From the NCBI RefSeq assembly GCF_007744675.1, contig NZ_CP036269.1:558001-622000 (forward strand): DNA of 64,000 nucleotides. Direction: 5' to 3'. Under the pieces are notes generated by a model that saw only the letters and a program-made list of their open reading frames with translations, searched no databases and was not told the DNA's origin. Source of the DNA: Gimesia alba (GTDB taxonomy: Bacteria > Planctomycetota > Planctomycetia > Planctomycetales > Planctomycetaceae). Both the position numbers and the translations under genes were made by a program. This document shows, piece after piece, positions 1 through 6,601 of the stretch. Each line of letters starts with the position of its first letter. The stretch's first letter is position 1.

Positions 1-346
1 CAGACTGAATGATGGACTGTTTCCAATAGGAATCAAATCGTGATTTCAGCGGGCCTTCCGTGATTGCCGATTCCGAGAGCGAAAAACTCAAAGCCAAAGA
101 AGTGACCACCATAGTTCCCAGCAGGGGAACGGCCCGTTCAATCCCTTTGCATTCAGATCTCAAACCAAAAAATGAAGAATTACTGGCTTTCAATATTTTA
201 GCAGTAATCGCAGGATCTGCTTTGATCGTCTCAATTACTTCCTTAATATCCGTGTCCGGATTTTTTGATAGATCCAACAACCGCACTGCGACAGCTGGTA
301 AGGTTGGTAGTTGATCGGAAGACCAAATTTTTTCAGGCGAAATCAT
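1..346 (-). CDS. HDOD domain signalling protein (3' end off the left edge)
   Basis: Only the first 115 codons lie in the window; the gene continues past position 1. They read as the start of an HDOD domain, a non-catalytic relative of HD phosphohydrolases that works as a scaffold in bacterial signalling. Family landmarks are [12 protein letters not shown] (residues 13-24), [15 protein letters not shown] (44-58) followed by FFG, and IERAVPLLG (69-77). The ATG at 346-344 is the only possible start because an in-frame TAG lies two codons upstream. A modest AAAGG precedes it. The gene follows a CheY-like and a CheX-like gene on the same strand, 142 nt after the former, so it is probably an output or partner of that receiver. 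The remaining domain content cannot be seen. Confidence 0.85.
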
Positions 347-488
347 TATCTAAGACCTTTGCGGTAATGCAATTCAATGAAAATACAGTCATTTTCAAGA
401 CTCGAATTTCTCTGAGTGACGCCGCGTTTTTCAAAGCGCATTCAAAGTTAACCAAGGTGGAATCAATTACAGATTATTTGACTTAACT

Positions 489-854
489 TTATGCGTTTGA
501 AGTGACCCAACGCTCCAGTTTGCTTTTCAAACTGTCCGGTGTGAATGGTTTTACCAGATAATCAGAAACACCAGCTTGAATTGCCGTGACCACACGAGCA
601 CGTTCTGCTTCGGTTGTAATCATAATCACGGGAATGTCTTTGTTCCGCTGACGAATCTCTTTCAGGAGTTGCAGACCGTCCATATTTGGCATGTTCCAAT
701 CGCTCAGAACAATATCAAATGTGGAAGCCTGGAATATCTCTAACGCCTGAACTCCATCTTCTGCTTCAGTCACATCTTCGATACCCAGTTTCGACAAACA
801 TCGCTTCTGGATTGTTCTCATTGTTCCTGAGTCATCAACAAGTAATACTTTCAT
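489..854 (-). CDS. Single-domain CheY-like response regulator
   Basis: A 121-residue protein that is only a receiver domain. The phosphorylation pocket is intact: acidic pair D7/D8, phospho-acceptor D52 (in LSDWNMPNMDG), T80 and K102 (in VKPF). It has no DNA-binding or enzymatic output, so signalling must pass through a partner protein. The frame is open further upstream, but the ATG at 854 is preferred: it has AAAGG eight bases upstream and gives the standard CheY length. The gene lies 74 nt after a CheX-like gene and 142 nt before an HDOD gene on the same strand, which suggests one transcript. The neighbouring CheX-like protein is the obvious candidate to dephosphorylate it (inference). Confidence 0.92.
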   Translation of the reverse strand: MKVLLVDDSGTMRTIQKRCLSKLGIEDVTEAEDGVQALEIFQASTFDIVLSDWNMPNMDGLQLLKEIRQRNKDIPVIMITTEAERARVVTAIQAGVSDYLVKPFTPDSLKSKLERWVTSNA

Positions 855-928
855 TGGAATGGCCTTTATCTTTAAGTCAGTAATTCGTTCAAAAACAAGT
901 ATTAGTCTATTAGTCAAACAGGGGCGTT

Positions 929-1417
929 TTAGCGATCAGAAAATCCTGCTTCAATAGTGAAGGTTCCGATTTCCGAATCGAACGCGATACAAATTGGCAC
1001 AACATTCGAAGGATAATGAACAGTGTGCCCTTTTCCGGTAATAATATTGGGAATACTAATAGATGCTTCCAGGTGCTCCAGTTGAGCTTTAGCTGATCCA
1101 GCAATCATATTCGCTAATTCACAAACGGCATCACAGACTTCGTCATTGATTTCATCGGACGAAATCCCAACGAGACGATCTAAAATTCCAATGCCTACAC
1201 TTTTTGATAAACTGAGAACGAGCGTTCCAGCTGCCTTTCCAGAAATCCCAATCACTGCACTTAACTCGTGTTCTGGAAGGTGGTCTGCTTTCAAACTCAA
1301 TCCAGTACGTTTCGGCGTGCAACCCAGCATCATTTCAAAAACAGAGATTGTTGAGCTGATGATTGGATTCACAAATTCTGCAGTGAGCTCCGATTTACCT
1401 GTAGTTGTTGACGTCAT
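929..1417 (-). CDS. CheX-like CheY-P phosphatase
   Basis: A 162-residue protein of the CheC/CheX/FliY phosphatase family, which removes phosphate from CheY-type receivers. The active-site helix fits the family pattern: D96, E100, N103 and G107 in DAVCELANMIAG. In CheX the Glu and Asn are the catalytic pair. There is a single such helix, as in CheX rather than CheC. The ATG at 1417 is preferred over a TTG two codons upstream because AGGAAC sits six bases before it. It heads the minus-strand group followed by a lone receiver and an HDOD protein. No cheA, cheW or receptor gene is in view, so a classic chemotaxis role is not supported here. Confidence 0.88.
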   Translation of the reverse strand: MTSTTTGKSELTAEFVNPIISSTISVFEMMLGCTPKRTGLSLKADHLPEHELSAVIGISGKAAGTLVLSLSKSVGIGILDRLVGISSDEINDEVCDAVCELANMIAGSAKAQLEHLEASISIPNIITGKGHTVHYPSNVVPICIAFDSEIGTFTIEAGFSDR

Positions 1418-2206
1418 TATCAAGTTCCTGTTTCCTGGGAATAATTCAAAATCTATAAATCGATTCTTCTGAGGTATTTCTCGTTCGTCTTGCTGGCTTA
1501 TCGAATTTCAATGTTGAACGGTTGTTTCTGCTCAACTCTTTGATGACTGCCTGACAAATCGTGTGTTTCAATAATTGTTCACTTAGAACATAGATCACGA
1601 AAAATTACATGTGCCAAAATATCAACACGATATTGGAAATAATAATTGTACGGTCCCTAGACCATTTCTGAGTATTCCGACTTTGTCGACTGTACTGGAG
1701 GCCTTGTCCTGCAGAGATACAGTGAAATCCCTCCTAATAATAGCCAGGCAATAGACTAAGACAGATCGATACTGCTACACATAAGTCAGATAAGAGGCCT
1801 TTTGAATGTGGAGCAAAGAGAAACCTGTAGTTTCTGTCTTAAGTTACGTGAAGAGGAAATGAAACAGGATAAAAAGATCCGGATTTCTGCAGTGAGGTGC
1901 TTCACTCATATCGATCGTTTAGATTCGTGAAAGTATTGGTGTGTAAAGGCTTCTACTAAAGAATTCTCTCGATTTGCAGTTGAGTCCATGAATGAAATTC
2001 GTATACGATGTGTGATAAGAATGGCAGGTAGAAAGTCTAACTGATGATTCGTCTGTCTCTTCTTATGATACGAAGAAATCGTATTATCATTTCAATAATA
2101 CTTTATTCATCATTTCTCAGAAGTAAGATCGAGAAACTCGTTCAGTTCTTTCTTCCTACATGCTGATATAATTAAATAGCTGCCGTGTTATCTAGCAAAA
2201 GCGCAA
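1418..2206. other. 789-nt intergenic region between signalling genes
   Basis: This AT-rich stretch separates the minus-strand CheX/CheY/HDOD group from the plus-strand DHp-like/NarL pair, so it should hold divergent promoters. I see no convincing gene, tRNA or repeat. A short stem (TACGA/TCGTA, loop of five) near 2070-2082 and the palindrome GGTCCCTAGACC near 1650 are the only symmetrical elements noticed. The length is large compared with most gaps here. Confidence 0.5.
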
Positions 2207-2467
2207 ATGCCAATGGCACAATCATTTCAACAAGATCACTTTGAGTTCGCTCAAGATGTCCGTACTACATGTCATCGATTGAATAACTTCTTGACCATTT
2301 TACAGTGTCAACACGATTGCCTTGGGGCATTGCCCTCCAAGAATATTGAGTCAGAGTTAGCTGGCATATTAAAAGAATTAGATCCATTAGTTGAATCCGT
2401 TACGAGTGACGTACATGAACTCTCTAAGAAATGCAGAGAGATATTGGAAGGGGCTAATAATAAATAG
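2207..2467 (+). CDS. Small histidine-kinase DHp-like helical hairpin protein
   Basis: An 86-residue protein that appears to be one helical hairpin. Helix 1 carries CHRLNNFLTIL (residues 22-32), which resembles the phospho-acceptor box of hybrid histidine kinases (usually H-D/R-x-N-N-x-L-T), with H23, N26 and N27. The second helix spans roughly residues 46-80. No ATP-binding domain, sensor or membrane segment follows. The start could be the ATG at 2207 or the one at 2213; neither has a strong ribosome site. It ends 78 nt before a NarL-type regulator on the same strand, which supports a phosphorelay or dimeric docking role. This is inference from the motif; the helix pattern also fits a generic coiled coil. 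Confidence 0.65.
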   Translation: MPMAQSFQQDHFEFAQDVRTTCHRLNNFLTILQCQHDCLGALPSKNIESELAGILKELDPLVESVTSDVHELSKKCREILEGANNK

Positions 2468-2545
2468 ACAATGGTGGAAAGTAGATTGAACCATTAGTTA
2501 ATTGATATCTATAATTTCTAGCACTTATTTTTTCCGGGGGCCAGC

Positions 2546-3211
2546 ATGCTTACTTCAACAGATACAATCCGCGTCGTTTTAGTCGATGACCACTTGATGC
2601 TCGTTGATTCATTGGTGACACGATTTCAACGAGACTCAGATATTGAAGTCGTCGGGACGGCGACTAATGCCGATGATGGTCTGGCTCTGATTCTTGAAAC
2701 GGAACCGGATGTTGTGATTTTGGATGTTGAGTTGCCAGGACGCGGTTCGTTTGATATTGGCGAAGAAATTTCATCCCGCTTGAAGAACACCAAAATGATT
2801 TTTCTTACCGGTTATCTCTCCGATATCTTTATTGAATTGGCGCTCAGGGTAAATGCGGTCGGTTATTTGTTGAAGGGTGAGCCAATTGAATCTTTGATTC
2901 ACGCCATCAAAAAAGCGGCTCGGGGTGAATATTGTTTTTCGCAATCCGTTCAGGAACGGTTGATTTTCGATCATAAAAAGAATCGGTATTCGATCCAATC
3001 AGAAAGTATGTTGGCATCACTGACCTCTCGGCAAATCGAAGTGCTTCGGCATCTGGCACGGGGGAAGAGTGTCAAAGAAGTCGCACGCTCTATGCATCTT
3101 TCTGAAAAATCAATCGACAGTCACAAATACCGAATCATGCACAAGCTGGGAATTCATGATCGCGTTGAACTTGCTCGCTATTCGATTCGCGAAGGATTGA
3201 CTCTTCCTTAA
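2546..3211 (+). CDS. NarL/FixJ-family response regulator
   Basis: A 221-residue transcription regulator. The receiver (about 8-125) has D14/D15, phospho-acceptor D60 (in VVILDVELPG), T88 and K110. The LuxR-type helix-turn-helix covers about 158-215 (TSRQIEVLRHLARGKSVKEVA, then a recognition helix around SEKSIDSHKYRIMHKL). A GGGGG stretch lies just upstream of the ATG. The regulator follows the DHp-like small protein by 78 nt and probably shares its transcript. Its cognate kinase is not in the window. Target genes cannot be told from the sequence. Confidence 0.93.
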   Translation: MLTSTDTIRVVLVDDHLMLVDSLVTRFQRDSDIEVVGTATNADDGLALILETEPDVVILDVELPGRGSFDIGEEISSRLKNTKMIFLTGYLSDIFIELALRVNAVGYLLKGEPIESLIHAIKKAARGEYCFSQSVQERLIFDHKKNRYSIQSESMLASLTSRQIEVLRHLARGKSVKEVARSMHLSEKSIDSHKYRIMHKLGIHDRVELARYSIREGLTLP

Positions 3212-3227
3212 ACAGGAGCTGTTTTTT
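3210..3227 (+). terminator. Short terminator-like hairpin after the NarL gene
   Basis: AAACAG/CTGTTT forms a 6-bp stem with a 3-base loop, and the stem runs into a six-T tract. It sits at the stop codon of the response regulator. The stem is short, so termination may be inefficient. Confidence 0.4.
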
Positions 3228-3232
3228 GATAC

Positions 3233-4186
3233 TCAGGAGTCAATCGGACCACGTTTTTGAATCAGACGATTGATTGACTCCGTTTGCGAGTCCGATAGTT
3301 CAAAGTTCATGGTTTCCGCATTTTCGATAATCTGCTCAGGGCGCTTAGCGCCACATAACGCACACGTAATTCCTGTCTGCTGAATCGTCCAGCGTATGAC
3401 AACCTGAGCTACCGTATGATTCAAGTCTCTTGCCAACATTCGTAACTCATCCAGAAAGTTCTGGTTTTTTTCCCATTCTTCGCCATGAAACATGGGATAC
3501 TTTTGCCGTCCATCTTCGGGGGCGAATTGATGATCGCGGGAAAGTTTGCCGGCCAGTAATCCTTTCATCAGCGGCCAATAAACCATCACAGAGACCTGAT
3601 TCTCAATGCACCAGGGGAGACGATCTAGTTCAATCTCACGCTGCAGCATATTATACCGTGGTTGATACGCTGAGATCGGGCAGACAGCAGCGAACTCTTG
3701 TAGTTGTTCCAGAGTAAAATTTGAGACGCCGACCGAAAGTATTTTTCCGGCCTCCAGCAGTTCTTTAAACGCCCCCGCTGATTCACTGACAGGAATTTCG
3801 GGGTCAGGTCCGTGTAAATAATAGAGCTCTACCCTGTCTGTATTCAGACGCGACAGACTTTCATCGCATTCCTGTTTGATTCTGGCGGGTGAGGCATTGC
3901 GAACCTGTTTCCTGTCGGACCAGTGAATGCCACCCTTTGTGGCAATCACAATTTGATCTCGTTTTTCTCCCAGAGCTTTCGCGATCAGACGCTCACTTTC
4001 TCCCTCATAACCGTAGCAATAGGCGGTATCGAAAAAGTTGATGCCTGATTCAAAAGCTGCATTCAAGGTCGCCAGGCTTGCCTCTTCAGTTACATCAACA
4101 CTCGTAACGCCGGAAATCGGCCAGCAGCCCATCGCGATGGGGGTCACTTGAATATTTGTATTTCCAATAGTTCGCAAGGCAGTCAT
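3233..4186 (-). CDS. Aldo/keto reductase
   Basis: A 317-residue NAD(P)H-dependent oxidoreductase of the aldo/keto reductase superfamily. The catalytic tetrad is complete: D53 and Y58 (in FFDTAYCYG), K84 (ATKGG) and H125 (YYLHGPDP). The length is normal. AGGAA lies eight bases before the ATG at 4186. It converges on the NarL gene and diverges from the SRAP gene, with no partner enzyme to indicate the substrate. Family members reduce or oxidise a wide range of carbonyls and sugars, so specificity is not assigned. Confidence 0.93.
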   Translation of the reverse strand: MTALRTIGNTNIQVTPIAMGCWPISGVTSVDVTEEASLATLNAAFESGINFFDTAYCYGYEGESERLIAKALGEKRDQIVIATKGGIHWSDRKQVRNASPARIKQECDESLSRLNTDRVELYYLHGPDPEIPVSESAGAFKELLEAGKILSVGVSNFTLEQLQEFAAVCPISAYQPRYNMLQREIELDRLPWCIENQVSVMVYWPLMKGLLAGKLSRDHQFAPEDGRQKYPMFHGEEWEKNQNFLDELRMLARDLNHTVAQVVIRWTIQQTGITCALCGAKRPEQIIENAETMNFELSDSQTESINRLIQKRGPIDS

Positions 4187-4335
4187 GGCATCAGTTCCTG
4201 TAGGAGATTATAGAGTAGCGTCATGTCTTGTAGTGGATGAATGGAGATTCAGCCCAGAACGAGCTATGATAGTGTACCGTTGGCTTAGAGAACATCATAT
4301 TGTTTGCACGAAACAAGTGAAGGCGAATCGAGATT

Positions 4336-5022
4336 ATGTGTGCACGGTTTTTCTTATTTTCACCTGACGAAGAGATCATGAAATTATTTCACATGGTCAA
4401 TTTTCCGCGAATCTCTCCCCGTTTCAACATTGCACCTTCTCAGCCAGTGCTGGCAATGACCAGAGGCCAGGACGGTTTTAACGTGAACCATTTTCAATGG
4501 GGGCTGATTCCCAGCTGGATGAAAGATCCTGCGCCGGGGCAGGCAATGATTAACGCCCGCTCAGAAACGGCGTCCTCTAAGCCGGCATTCAAGAATGCAT
4601 TTCGCTATCGCAGGTGCCTGATTCCCGCTAACGGATTTTATGAATGGAAGAGTGCCGGGAATCGTTCGAAGCAAGCGATGTGTGTCCGAATCAATGAGGC
4701 ACCTCTGTTTGCGATGGCAGGGATCTGGGAGCAGTGGCACAGCCCTGACGGAACAGAGCTGGAAACCTGCTCTGTATTGACGACGGCCGCCAATGCGCTG
4801 TTGGAATCCATTCACCCCCGCATGCCCGTGATTCTGCGCCCGGAACAATATGAGCGTTGGCTGAGTGCGGATACCACTCCCATTCCTCAGTTGGAGCGGT
4901 TACTTCAGACCTATCCCGCAGAGGAGATGCAGGTTTTTCCTGTCAGCTCCCATGTGAATAAAGTTGCCCATGATTCCCCGGAATGCATCGCGCCAATTCA
5001 GGAACAGAAAACGCTGTTTTAG
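4336..5022 (+). CDS. SRAP-domain abasic-site DNA-protein crosslinking protein (YedK/HMCES family)
   Basis: A 228-residue SRAP protein. The family covalently traps abasic sites in single-stranded DNA through the alpha-amino group and thiol of Cys2 exposed after Met removal. Here the N-terminus is MCAR (most family members have MCGR), which also fixes the start at 4336. Other active-site residues are present: N31 in NIAPSQ, E103 in NGFYEWK and H160 in IHPRMPVIL. A Cys2-dependent self-crosslinking role is therefore well supported. The stop codon overlaps the stop of the convergent HAD phosphatase gene by 4 nt. No SOS-type operator was recognised upstream. Confidence 0.93.
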   Translation: MCARFFLFSPDEEIMKLFHMVNFPRISPRFNIAPSQPVLAMTRGQDGFNVNHFQWGLIPSWMKDPAPGQAMINARSETASSKPAFKNAFRYRRCLIPANGFYEWKSAGNRSKQAMCVRINEAPLFAMAGIWEQWHSPDGTELETCSVLTTAANALLESIHPRMPVILRPEQYERWLSADTTPIPQLERLLQTYPAEEMQVFPVSSHVNKVAHDSPECIAPIQEQKTLF

Positions 5023-5714
5023 TCAGCTGTTTCGGGGGCCGCGAAGAGTGAGAGAAGGGGTTCGATTTCTTCGAAATGCTCAAACAGGTAGTCTGGTTCA
5101 CATGCGCGGAGTTCTTCCAGCGGGTAAACACCGGTCGCGACGGCAATCACTTTGGCGCCAATCGCCCGCGCACAGTAAATATCGCTGGGCGTATCTCCAA
5201 TCACCCAGATCGAAGTTTCTGTCAATGACTCGGAGGTGTGGCGTTGTTGGATCTGTTTGATTGCCTCGTGTGCCACGTCATTTCGATCGGCGTGATGATC
5301 TCCATACGCACCGAATTCAAAGAAGTGATTCAGGTCGTAGTGTTCCAGCTTCTGACGGGCACCATGTTCAAAATTGCCGGTCAGTAGACCGAGGTCGATG
5401 TGCGTGTGCTGGGACAGTTGTTCCAGGATCGGTTTGATGCCCGGCAAGACGCGGCCTTGCCGTTCTTTCAGTTTTTCGGCAAGCAGTTTGAGATAGGCGG
5501 ATTCAAAGCGTTGCCGATTCTGGCTGGTATTCGGAATGCCAAAGTATTCGAAGAGATCCACCATGATGGCATGGTCCGTTCGCCCGGCTGTCGGAATGCC
5601 TTCCACGGGCGCAGAAACCTGAAATTCTTCTTCCAGCATATGCAGGATCGATCGTTGTCCGGCACCACCGGTATCGATCAATGTGCCATCAATATCAAAC
5701 AGACAAATATGCAT
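5019..5714 (-). CDS. HAD-superfamily hydrolase (phosphoglycolate phosphatase-like)
   Basis: A 231-residue HAD phosphatase. Motif I is FDIDGTLID with nucleophile D7 and general acid D9; motif II is LLTGN around residue 117; motif IV is GDTPSDI near residue 177. A helical cap lies between motifs I and II, as in the Gph/beta-phosphoglucomutase group. The ATG at 5714 is chosen over a TTG six codons earlier. It follows the ExeA-like ATPase gene by 50 nt on the same strand and could be co-transcribed. The substrate is unknown; a small phosphorylated metabolite is usual for this family. Confidence 0.88.
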   Translation of the reverse strand: MHICLFDIDGTLIDTGGAGQRSILHMLEEEFQVSAPVEGIPTAGRTDHAIMVDLFEYFGIPNTSQNRQRFESAYLKLLAEKLKERQGRVLPGIKPILEQLSQHTHIDLGLLTGNFEHGARQKLEHYDLNHFFEFGAYGDHHADRNDVAHEAIKQIQQRHTSESLTETSIWVIGDTPSDIYCARAIGAKVIAVATGVYPLEELRACEPDYLFEHFEEIEPLLSLFAAPETAD

Positions 5715-5764
5715 TTTCCGCCAGTGATTCAAAAGTGATGAAAGTGGTTGTTGTCACCACTATT

Positions 5765-6601
5765 CTATACACCATGCATGACTTCGGAAATGCGGTTTGT
5801 TGTATGGGACGTGCCTTTTATTTCAAATCCTGCTCTGGTGATCACATCTGAGTCAATTTCCTGCAGGTTTTGTTCGTATCCCGCCAACAAGGCCAGATCA
5901 CAGATTTGATTGATATTCTCTGGTATTCCTTCGGTCGCTTTTTGAATTTCTCGAAATGCGTCAGCCGTGAAAGGGGATTTGGAACAACCCGAACAATTCA
6001 GGCGATACCTGATATAATTTTCTGTTGTTTCCTGATCAAATGGTCCGAGTTCAATCGCCAAGTCTGAGAATTGAGAGACAGCTGCCGCTTCCCCGGAATT
6101 CAGATTCTCTAATGCCGTCACGATTGTTAATGAAGGAAATCGTTGATTTCCGGTGTGCAGCAAGCGTTCAATTGATTTCAGACATTCGGCGCGGCTCTGA
6201 TCAACATGGTCCAGAAGCAGAATCAAGCGGCCCTGCGTCAGTTGCAGTCCCATCAGGTAATCAGTCAATTGTCGCCAGAGCTGAGGCAACTGAGTGGTAT
6301 ATGCGGGTCCCAGGCGTAATTGCGCACAGAGCTGCCAGAGGAATTCTTCTTCTCCCAGGCCGAATAGATCAATCGATTCACACTGATAGGGGCTTCTTTT
6401 CAGGATCGTCTCGAAAACCTTGAGTGTAAACGACTTGCCCGTTCCTTCAGGGCCTGTGAACACGGCGCATTTCTTTTGCTCTTCTGCCACAAACAATAAG
6501 CGGGCCAGCGCTTCCTCGTGGAATTCACTTTCAAAAAAGTATTCCAGATCCAATTGTTGGTCGAACGGTGCTTGTGACAAATTCCAGAAATCGCAATACA
6601 T
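5765..6601 (-). CDS. ExeA/GspA-like AAA ATPase
   Basis: A 278-residue P-loop ATPase of the ExeA/TniB-like group. The N-terminus MYCDFWNLSQAPFDQQ matches the family opening, which supports the ATG at 6601 although another ATG 30 codons upstream is in frame. Walker A is GPEGTGKS (50-57), Walker B is LILLLDHVDQ ending near residue 135, and a winged-helix-like region follows. Family members help assemble type II secretion complexes or act in transposition. No transposase or gsp gene is nearby and there is no peptidoglycan-binding tail, so the role is open. It precedes the HAD gene in the same direction. Confidence 0.82.
   Translation of the reverse strand: MYCDFWNLSQAPFDQQLDLEYFFESEFHEEALARLLFVAEEQKKCAVFTGPEGTGKSFTLKVFETILKRSPYQCESIDLFGLGEEEFLWQLCAQLRLGPAYTTQLPQLWRQLTDYLMGLQLTQGRLILLLDHVDQSRAECLKSIERLLHTGNQRFPSLTIVTALENLNSGEAAAVSQFSDLAIELGPFDQETTENYIRYRLNCSGCSKSPFTADAFREIQKATEGIPENINQICDLALLAGYEQNLQEIDSDVITRAGFEIKGTSHTTNRISEVMHGV

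Follow-up and report, generated by a model that had tools for sequence, protein, structure and literature searches.

A free-standing histidine-kinase-like helical hairpin, probably derived from a HisKA module, beside a NarL-type response regulator in Gimesia

We analysed a stretch of 64,000 nucleotides (the window) from the genome of the planctomycete Gimesia alba, a single contig of 7.77 Mb. A short open reading frame in the window (ORF; 2207-2467, + strand) ends exactly 78 nt before the gene of a NarL/LuxR-type response regulator (2546-3211, + strand), as a sequence-only reading of this DNA had stated. The regulator matched Response_reg (3.3e-17) and GerE (6e-19) in Pfam, and the Asp, Thr and Lys of its receiver were found by eye. 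On the other side of the ORF, both on the - strand, lie the genes for a CheX-type phosphatase with an E-L-A-N (ExxN) motif (932-1417; CheX at 1.9e-22 in Pfam and 2.2e-22 in NCBIfam) and for a CheY-like single-domain receiver (489-854; Response_reg at 1e-34 in Pfam), on which the CheX protein presumably acts. The CheY-like receiver is a candidate phosphoryl donor or acceptor for the product of the short ORF, or else a mere neighbour. Throughout Gimesia the gene order was cheX (-), short gene (+), regulator (+) and an aldo/keto reductase gene (-); the only exception was the locus L018, which is cut by a contig end, with the end of the short gene and the regulator on another contig. A non-coding block upstream of cheX (window 1560-1640) was ∼80% identical within the genus, above the surrounding intergenic DNA; Rfam gave no match to this block or elsewhere in positions 1-6000 of the window.

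Counted from its first ATG (2207), the short gene encodes the 86 residues originally given, but the genomes of the genus share the second ATG (2213) as a start, which is probably the true one and would yield a protein of 84 aa (2213-2467, + strand). The protein, which we call the hairpin, carries a phospho-acceptor-like His (H23; 2273-2275, + strand), followed by Asn-Asn at His+3 and His+4 (N26 and N27; 2282-2287, + strand) and by a Cys at His+11 (C34; 2306-2308, + strand). Orthologues were present in 17 of 17 Gimesia genomes, and H23, N26, N27 and C34 were invariant among them. The dN/dS of the hairpin gene against its nearest relative was 0.05, and seven of eight other gene pairs gave values of 0.04-0.25 (one close pair, 0.53); judged from these substitution ratios, the gene is under purifying selection. 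As it is found in every genome of the genus, in a kept gene order and with a low dN/dS, we conclude that the ORF is a real gene and more than a chance ORF.

Pfam and NCBIfam did not recognize the hairpin (DUF948 at 0.27 and LIC10012 at 0.015, both far under cut-off). Consistent with the earlier claim that the protein has no ATP-binding or sensor domain, neither a HATPase nor a sensor match was obtained with these two libraries in its 84 aa. A PDB sequence search gave no match. An AF2 monomer model, made with an alignment of 18 rows, consisted of two long helices that span residues 2-38 and 42-82, with a mean pLDDT of 87. Foldseek and VIA-align searches of the PDB returned many unrelated, generic helical hairpins and nothing significant, and these fold searches are uninformative because helical hairpins occur everywhere. 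Such results, together with the silence of Pfam, would also fit a regulator-binding helical adaptor or inhibitor with no enzymatic activity, or a hairpin that resembles a DHp only superficially. The residues of the H-box speak against this reading: the His and the Asn-Asn, including the Asn at His+4, were kept in 18 of 18 alignment rows, a specific conservation that bears out the H23 and N26-N27 box of the sequence-only reading.

We then compared the hairpin profile by hhalign with 20 HisKA domains of the same genome that had been picked irrespective of their likeness to the query. The match scored 95.2% (E 2.8e-8), with His aligned to His and similarity along both helices, and 91% when the genus rows alone were used, while a reversed profile reached 2.8% and 100 column shuffles gave 5.8% or less. 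When the domains were divided by H-box type, the HDFNN/HEFNN subset scored 92% and the RTP-type rows 28%. The closest H-box type is thus that of the HisKA DHp (PF00512) of HDFNN/HEFNN hybrid kinases (e.g. G000:C1:2464592-2464789 in the same genome), in which H-D-F-N-N-L-L aligns with H-x-L-N-N-x-L of the hairpin. The Pfam HisKA model itself gave no score to the hairpin of the window. A family-wide whole-genome profile scan returned, beyond the genus orthologues, mostly histidine-kinase H-boxes or ATPase-less relatives; among the matches was a hybrid kinase of the same genome (HDFNNLLTVITCELEL) that lies above the Pfam HisKA cut-off. An origin from HisKA_2/HWE, considered because of the HRxxN H-box, was rejected: hhalign gave 0.3% against a thin profile of two HisKA_2 domains from planctomycetes, and HisKA_2 was absent from all 13 genus genomes searched. 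The hairpin had no match to Hpt (PF01627) and its locus was not among the six Hpt matches of the genome, a missing match that is compatible with a distant relation. Like Hpt proteins, the hairpin could serve as a His-bearing protein without an ATPase; unlike these usually monomeric four-helix bundles, it is an 84-aa two-helix protein with a HisKA-like H-box.

Relatives were sought around orthologues of the regulator, which (at E 1e-35) were matched in 31 of the 58 genera of the family; the DNA around 40 of these matches was taken, and a hairpin profile built from the genus only was used to search 2527 ORFs of 45 loci. The top matches outside the genus came from three different genera, each directly upstream of an orthologous regulator: L063 (G072; E 7e-5), a protein of 234-239 aa with a weak PAS match followed by the hairpin, 222 nt from the regulator; L051 (G073; E 2e-4), a stand-alone short hairpin of 79 aa with a gap of 57 nt; and L090 (G070; E 1e-3), a stand-alone short hairpin of 88 aa with a gap of 89 nt. 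None of the three has an ATPase domain, and the L090 locus shows the full Gimesia order cheY-cheX-hairpin-regulator. For the PAS-DHp protein of L063, AF2 without an alignment gave no confident model (pLDDT 38). A marginal match, L096 (G074; 111 aa, E 0.03-0.05, 48 nt from the regulator), has Ser at His+4 instead of Asn/Thr. A match of the G070 protein to SSFA2_C (1.5e-4, under its cut-off) was treated as chance, and L054 (G056) was a false match inside a non-kinase protein. In a class-wide sample of 397 genomes we found no further stand-alone hairpin beyond the family. Elsewhere, two genomes of another genus encode proteins in which a receiver is joined to a HisKA-like H-box (HDINNLLLVISC) and an ATPase domain is absent (L052:1054-1725, - strand; L055:1363-2103, + strand), near a FixJ-like regulator gene, a further ATPase-less DHp architecture.

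No homologue lacking the His was found among the significant ones. In G059, a regulator orthologue is preceded by a very divergent ORF of 129 aa (L094:1673-2059, - strand), which is hairpin-like and seems to have Asn for His; it keeps the Cys and the Asn at His+4, and the regulator at this locus clusters with the L096 one. This ORF is not significant in its own right, so that its homology is not established and it was not accepted as a His-less homologue; if it were one, it would favour the adaptor or superficial reading. That reading is nevertheless improbable in view of the H-box, the His-to-His profile alignment unmatched by shuffled or reversed controls and the orthologous regulators that lie beside the relatives from other genera. 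The conserved His and Asn-Asn, the controlled similarity to HisKA, the predicted hairpin and the linked homologues instead uphold the original description of a histidine-kinase-like hairpin. On these grounds, together with orthology and dN/dS, we assign 2213-2467 to a stand-alone DHp-like protein, which is very probably a free-standing, reduced DHp module derived from a HisKA-type histidine kinase without its ATP-binding half.

The regulator adjoins the hairpin gene throughout the genus, and its orthologues do likewise in G070, G072, G073 and G074; from this linkage, the regulator at 2546-3211 is the likely partner of the hairpin. Nine other loci keep the CheY-like gene (76-86% identity) and cheX (51-61%) beside the regulator orthologue, which indicates that the locus is a signalling unit of long standing, with the hairpin as one of its parts in some genera. 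In eight other loci, the gap between cheX and the regulator contained no conserved hairpin ORF. For most regulator orthologues in the family, a hairpin gene could not be detected next door, so that the regulator can function without the hairpin or with an unlinked partner. On the regulator tree the label 'hairpin present' changed six times, with most deep forks weak, and the hairpin was likely gained or lost repeatedly. Second copies of the regulator, 89-91% identical and without a hairpin gene, were seen in two Gimesia genomes (L061 and L062).

What could a DHp without a catalytic domain do? The acid that follows the His in HisKA proteins is needed for kinase activity only, and the T/N at His+4 for phosphatase activity only (PMC3510030). 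The HisKA kinases inspected in the same genome have E or D after the His, except for one in which the His itself is replaced by Gln (L134, G000:C1:4702385-4702579; SQEVRTPL), possibly a pseudokinase as far as its sequence tells. In the hairpin, the residue at His+1 was R in 12 rows, Q in 3 and D, K and N in one each, so that an acid was missing in 17 of 18 rows (the sole D is in L004). The hairpin, of HisKA DHp descent, may therefore work like a DHp, yet without the kinase-specific residue. It further differs from HisKA kinases in its length of only 84 aa and in the lack of an ATPase domain and, in Gimesia, of a sensor. Rv0600c and Rv0601c of M. tuberculosis are split halves of a kinase. By analogy, a CA protein encoded elsewhere might phosphorylate H23 in trans and the hairpin might then phosphorylate the regulator; Rv0600c and Rv0601c are reported as two separate histidine kinases that cooperate with TcrA (PMC9274095). 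For the hairpin we consider such a split kinase very improbable, since the kinase-specific acid (PMC3510030) has been lost in most orthologues and a CA gene is absent at the locus.

The loss of the autokinase acid, the lack of an ATPase and the Asn at His+4 that is invariant in the genus favour instead a role as a phosphatase. Two copies of the hairpin would form a four-helix bundle, which, as the gene linkage suggests, would dock the receiver of the NarL-type regulator encoded next to it and drain phosphate from that regulator, which would then stay off except when driven by an unlinked kinase. We tentatively put forward this activity, a phosphatase or phosphoryl sink for the adjacent regulator, as the main one, though at somewhat less than even confidence. 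The hairpin resembles the DHp of EnvZ or HK853 without CA, constructs that have been assayed as phosphatases; those are laboratory truncations, whereas the hairpin is a natural conserved gene. For EnvZ, the title of a reference cited in PMC7005713 reports the DHp without its CA domain as a phosphatase. Against this role, the marginal L096 protein has its Ser at His+4, most regulator orthologues of the family show no hairpin gene beside them, and the His is kept in all significant homologues, though a pure phosphatase does not strictly require it.

The His, invariant wherever homology is significant, would fit a dimeric histidine phosphotransferase, in which a phosphorylated CheY-like neighbour or a hybrid kinase would pass its phosphoryl group to H23 and from there to the NarL-type regulator. 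The histidine-kinase-like phosphotransferases ChpT, Spo0B and PhyT do not use ATP to make phospho-His or possess a degenerate ATPase domain, and like them the hairpin is a His-bearing DHp-type protein without a working autokinase. The H-box of PhyT is HRxxN, as in most Gimesia copies, and a CheY-like receiver is present within the same conserved locus. However, transfer alone leaves the invariant Asn at His+4 unexplained, no donor has been identified, and ChpT and PhyT retain a C-terminal domain (an ATPase-like fold and a degenerate ATPase domain, respectively) where the hairpin has no residues at all. Spo0B too keeps a degenerate ATPase domain. We regard a phosphotransferase as possible though rather unlikely; it ranks close behind the phosphatase role, nearly level with it because of the conserved His and the ChpT, Spo0B and PhyT precedents.

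Kinase-derived phosphotransferases are already known, and in those compared here an ATPase-like domain is retained; in the open-access literature we found no description of a natural DHp-only protein. We lean, with modest confidence, towards the view that the hairpins form an unnamed family of natural DHp-only proteins (∼75-110 aa, with one relative having a PAS-like N-terminus) that is dedicated to a single lineage of NarL-type regulators in Planctomycetaceae and acts as phosphatase or phosphotransferase with no ATPase-like domain at all. Pfam and NCBIfam miss such genes. The hairpin would be a small system for telling phosphatase from transfer chemistry. A natural DHp-only protein would demonstrate that a small part of a kinase suffices to control a regulator, and such proteins could account for the handling of some 'orphan' regulators that have no kinase next to them.
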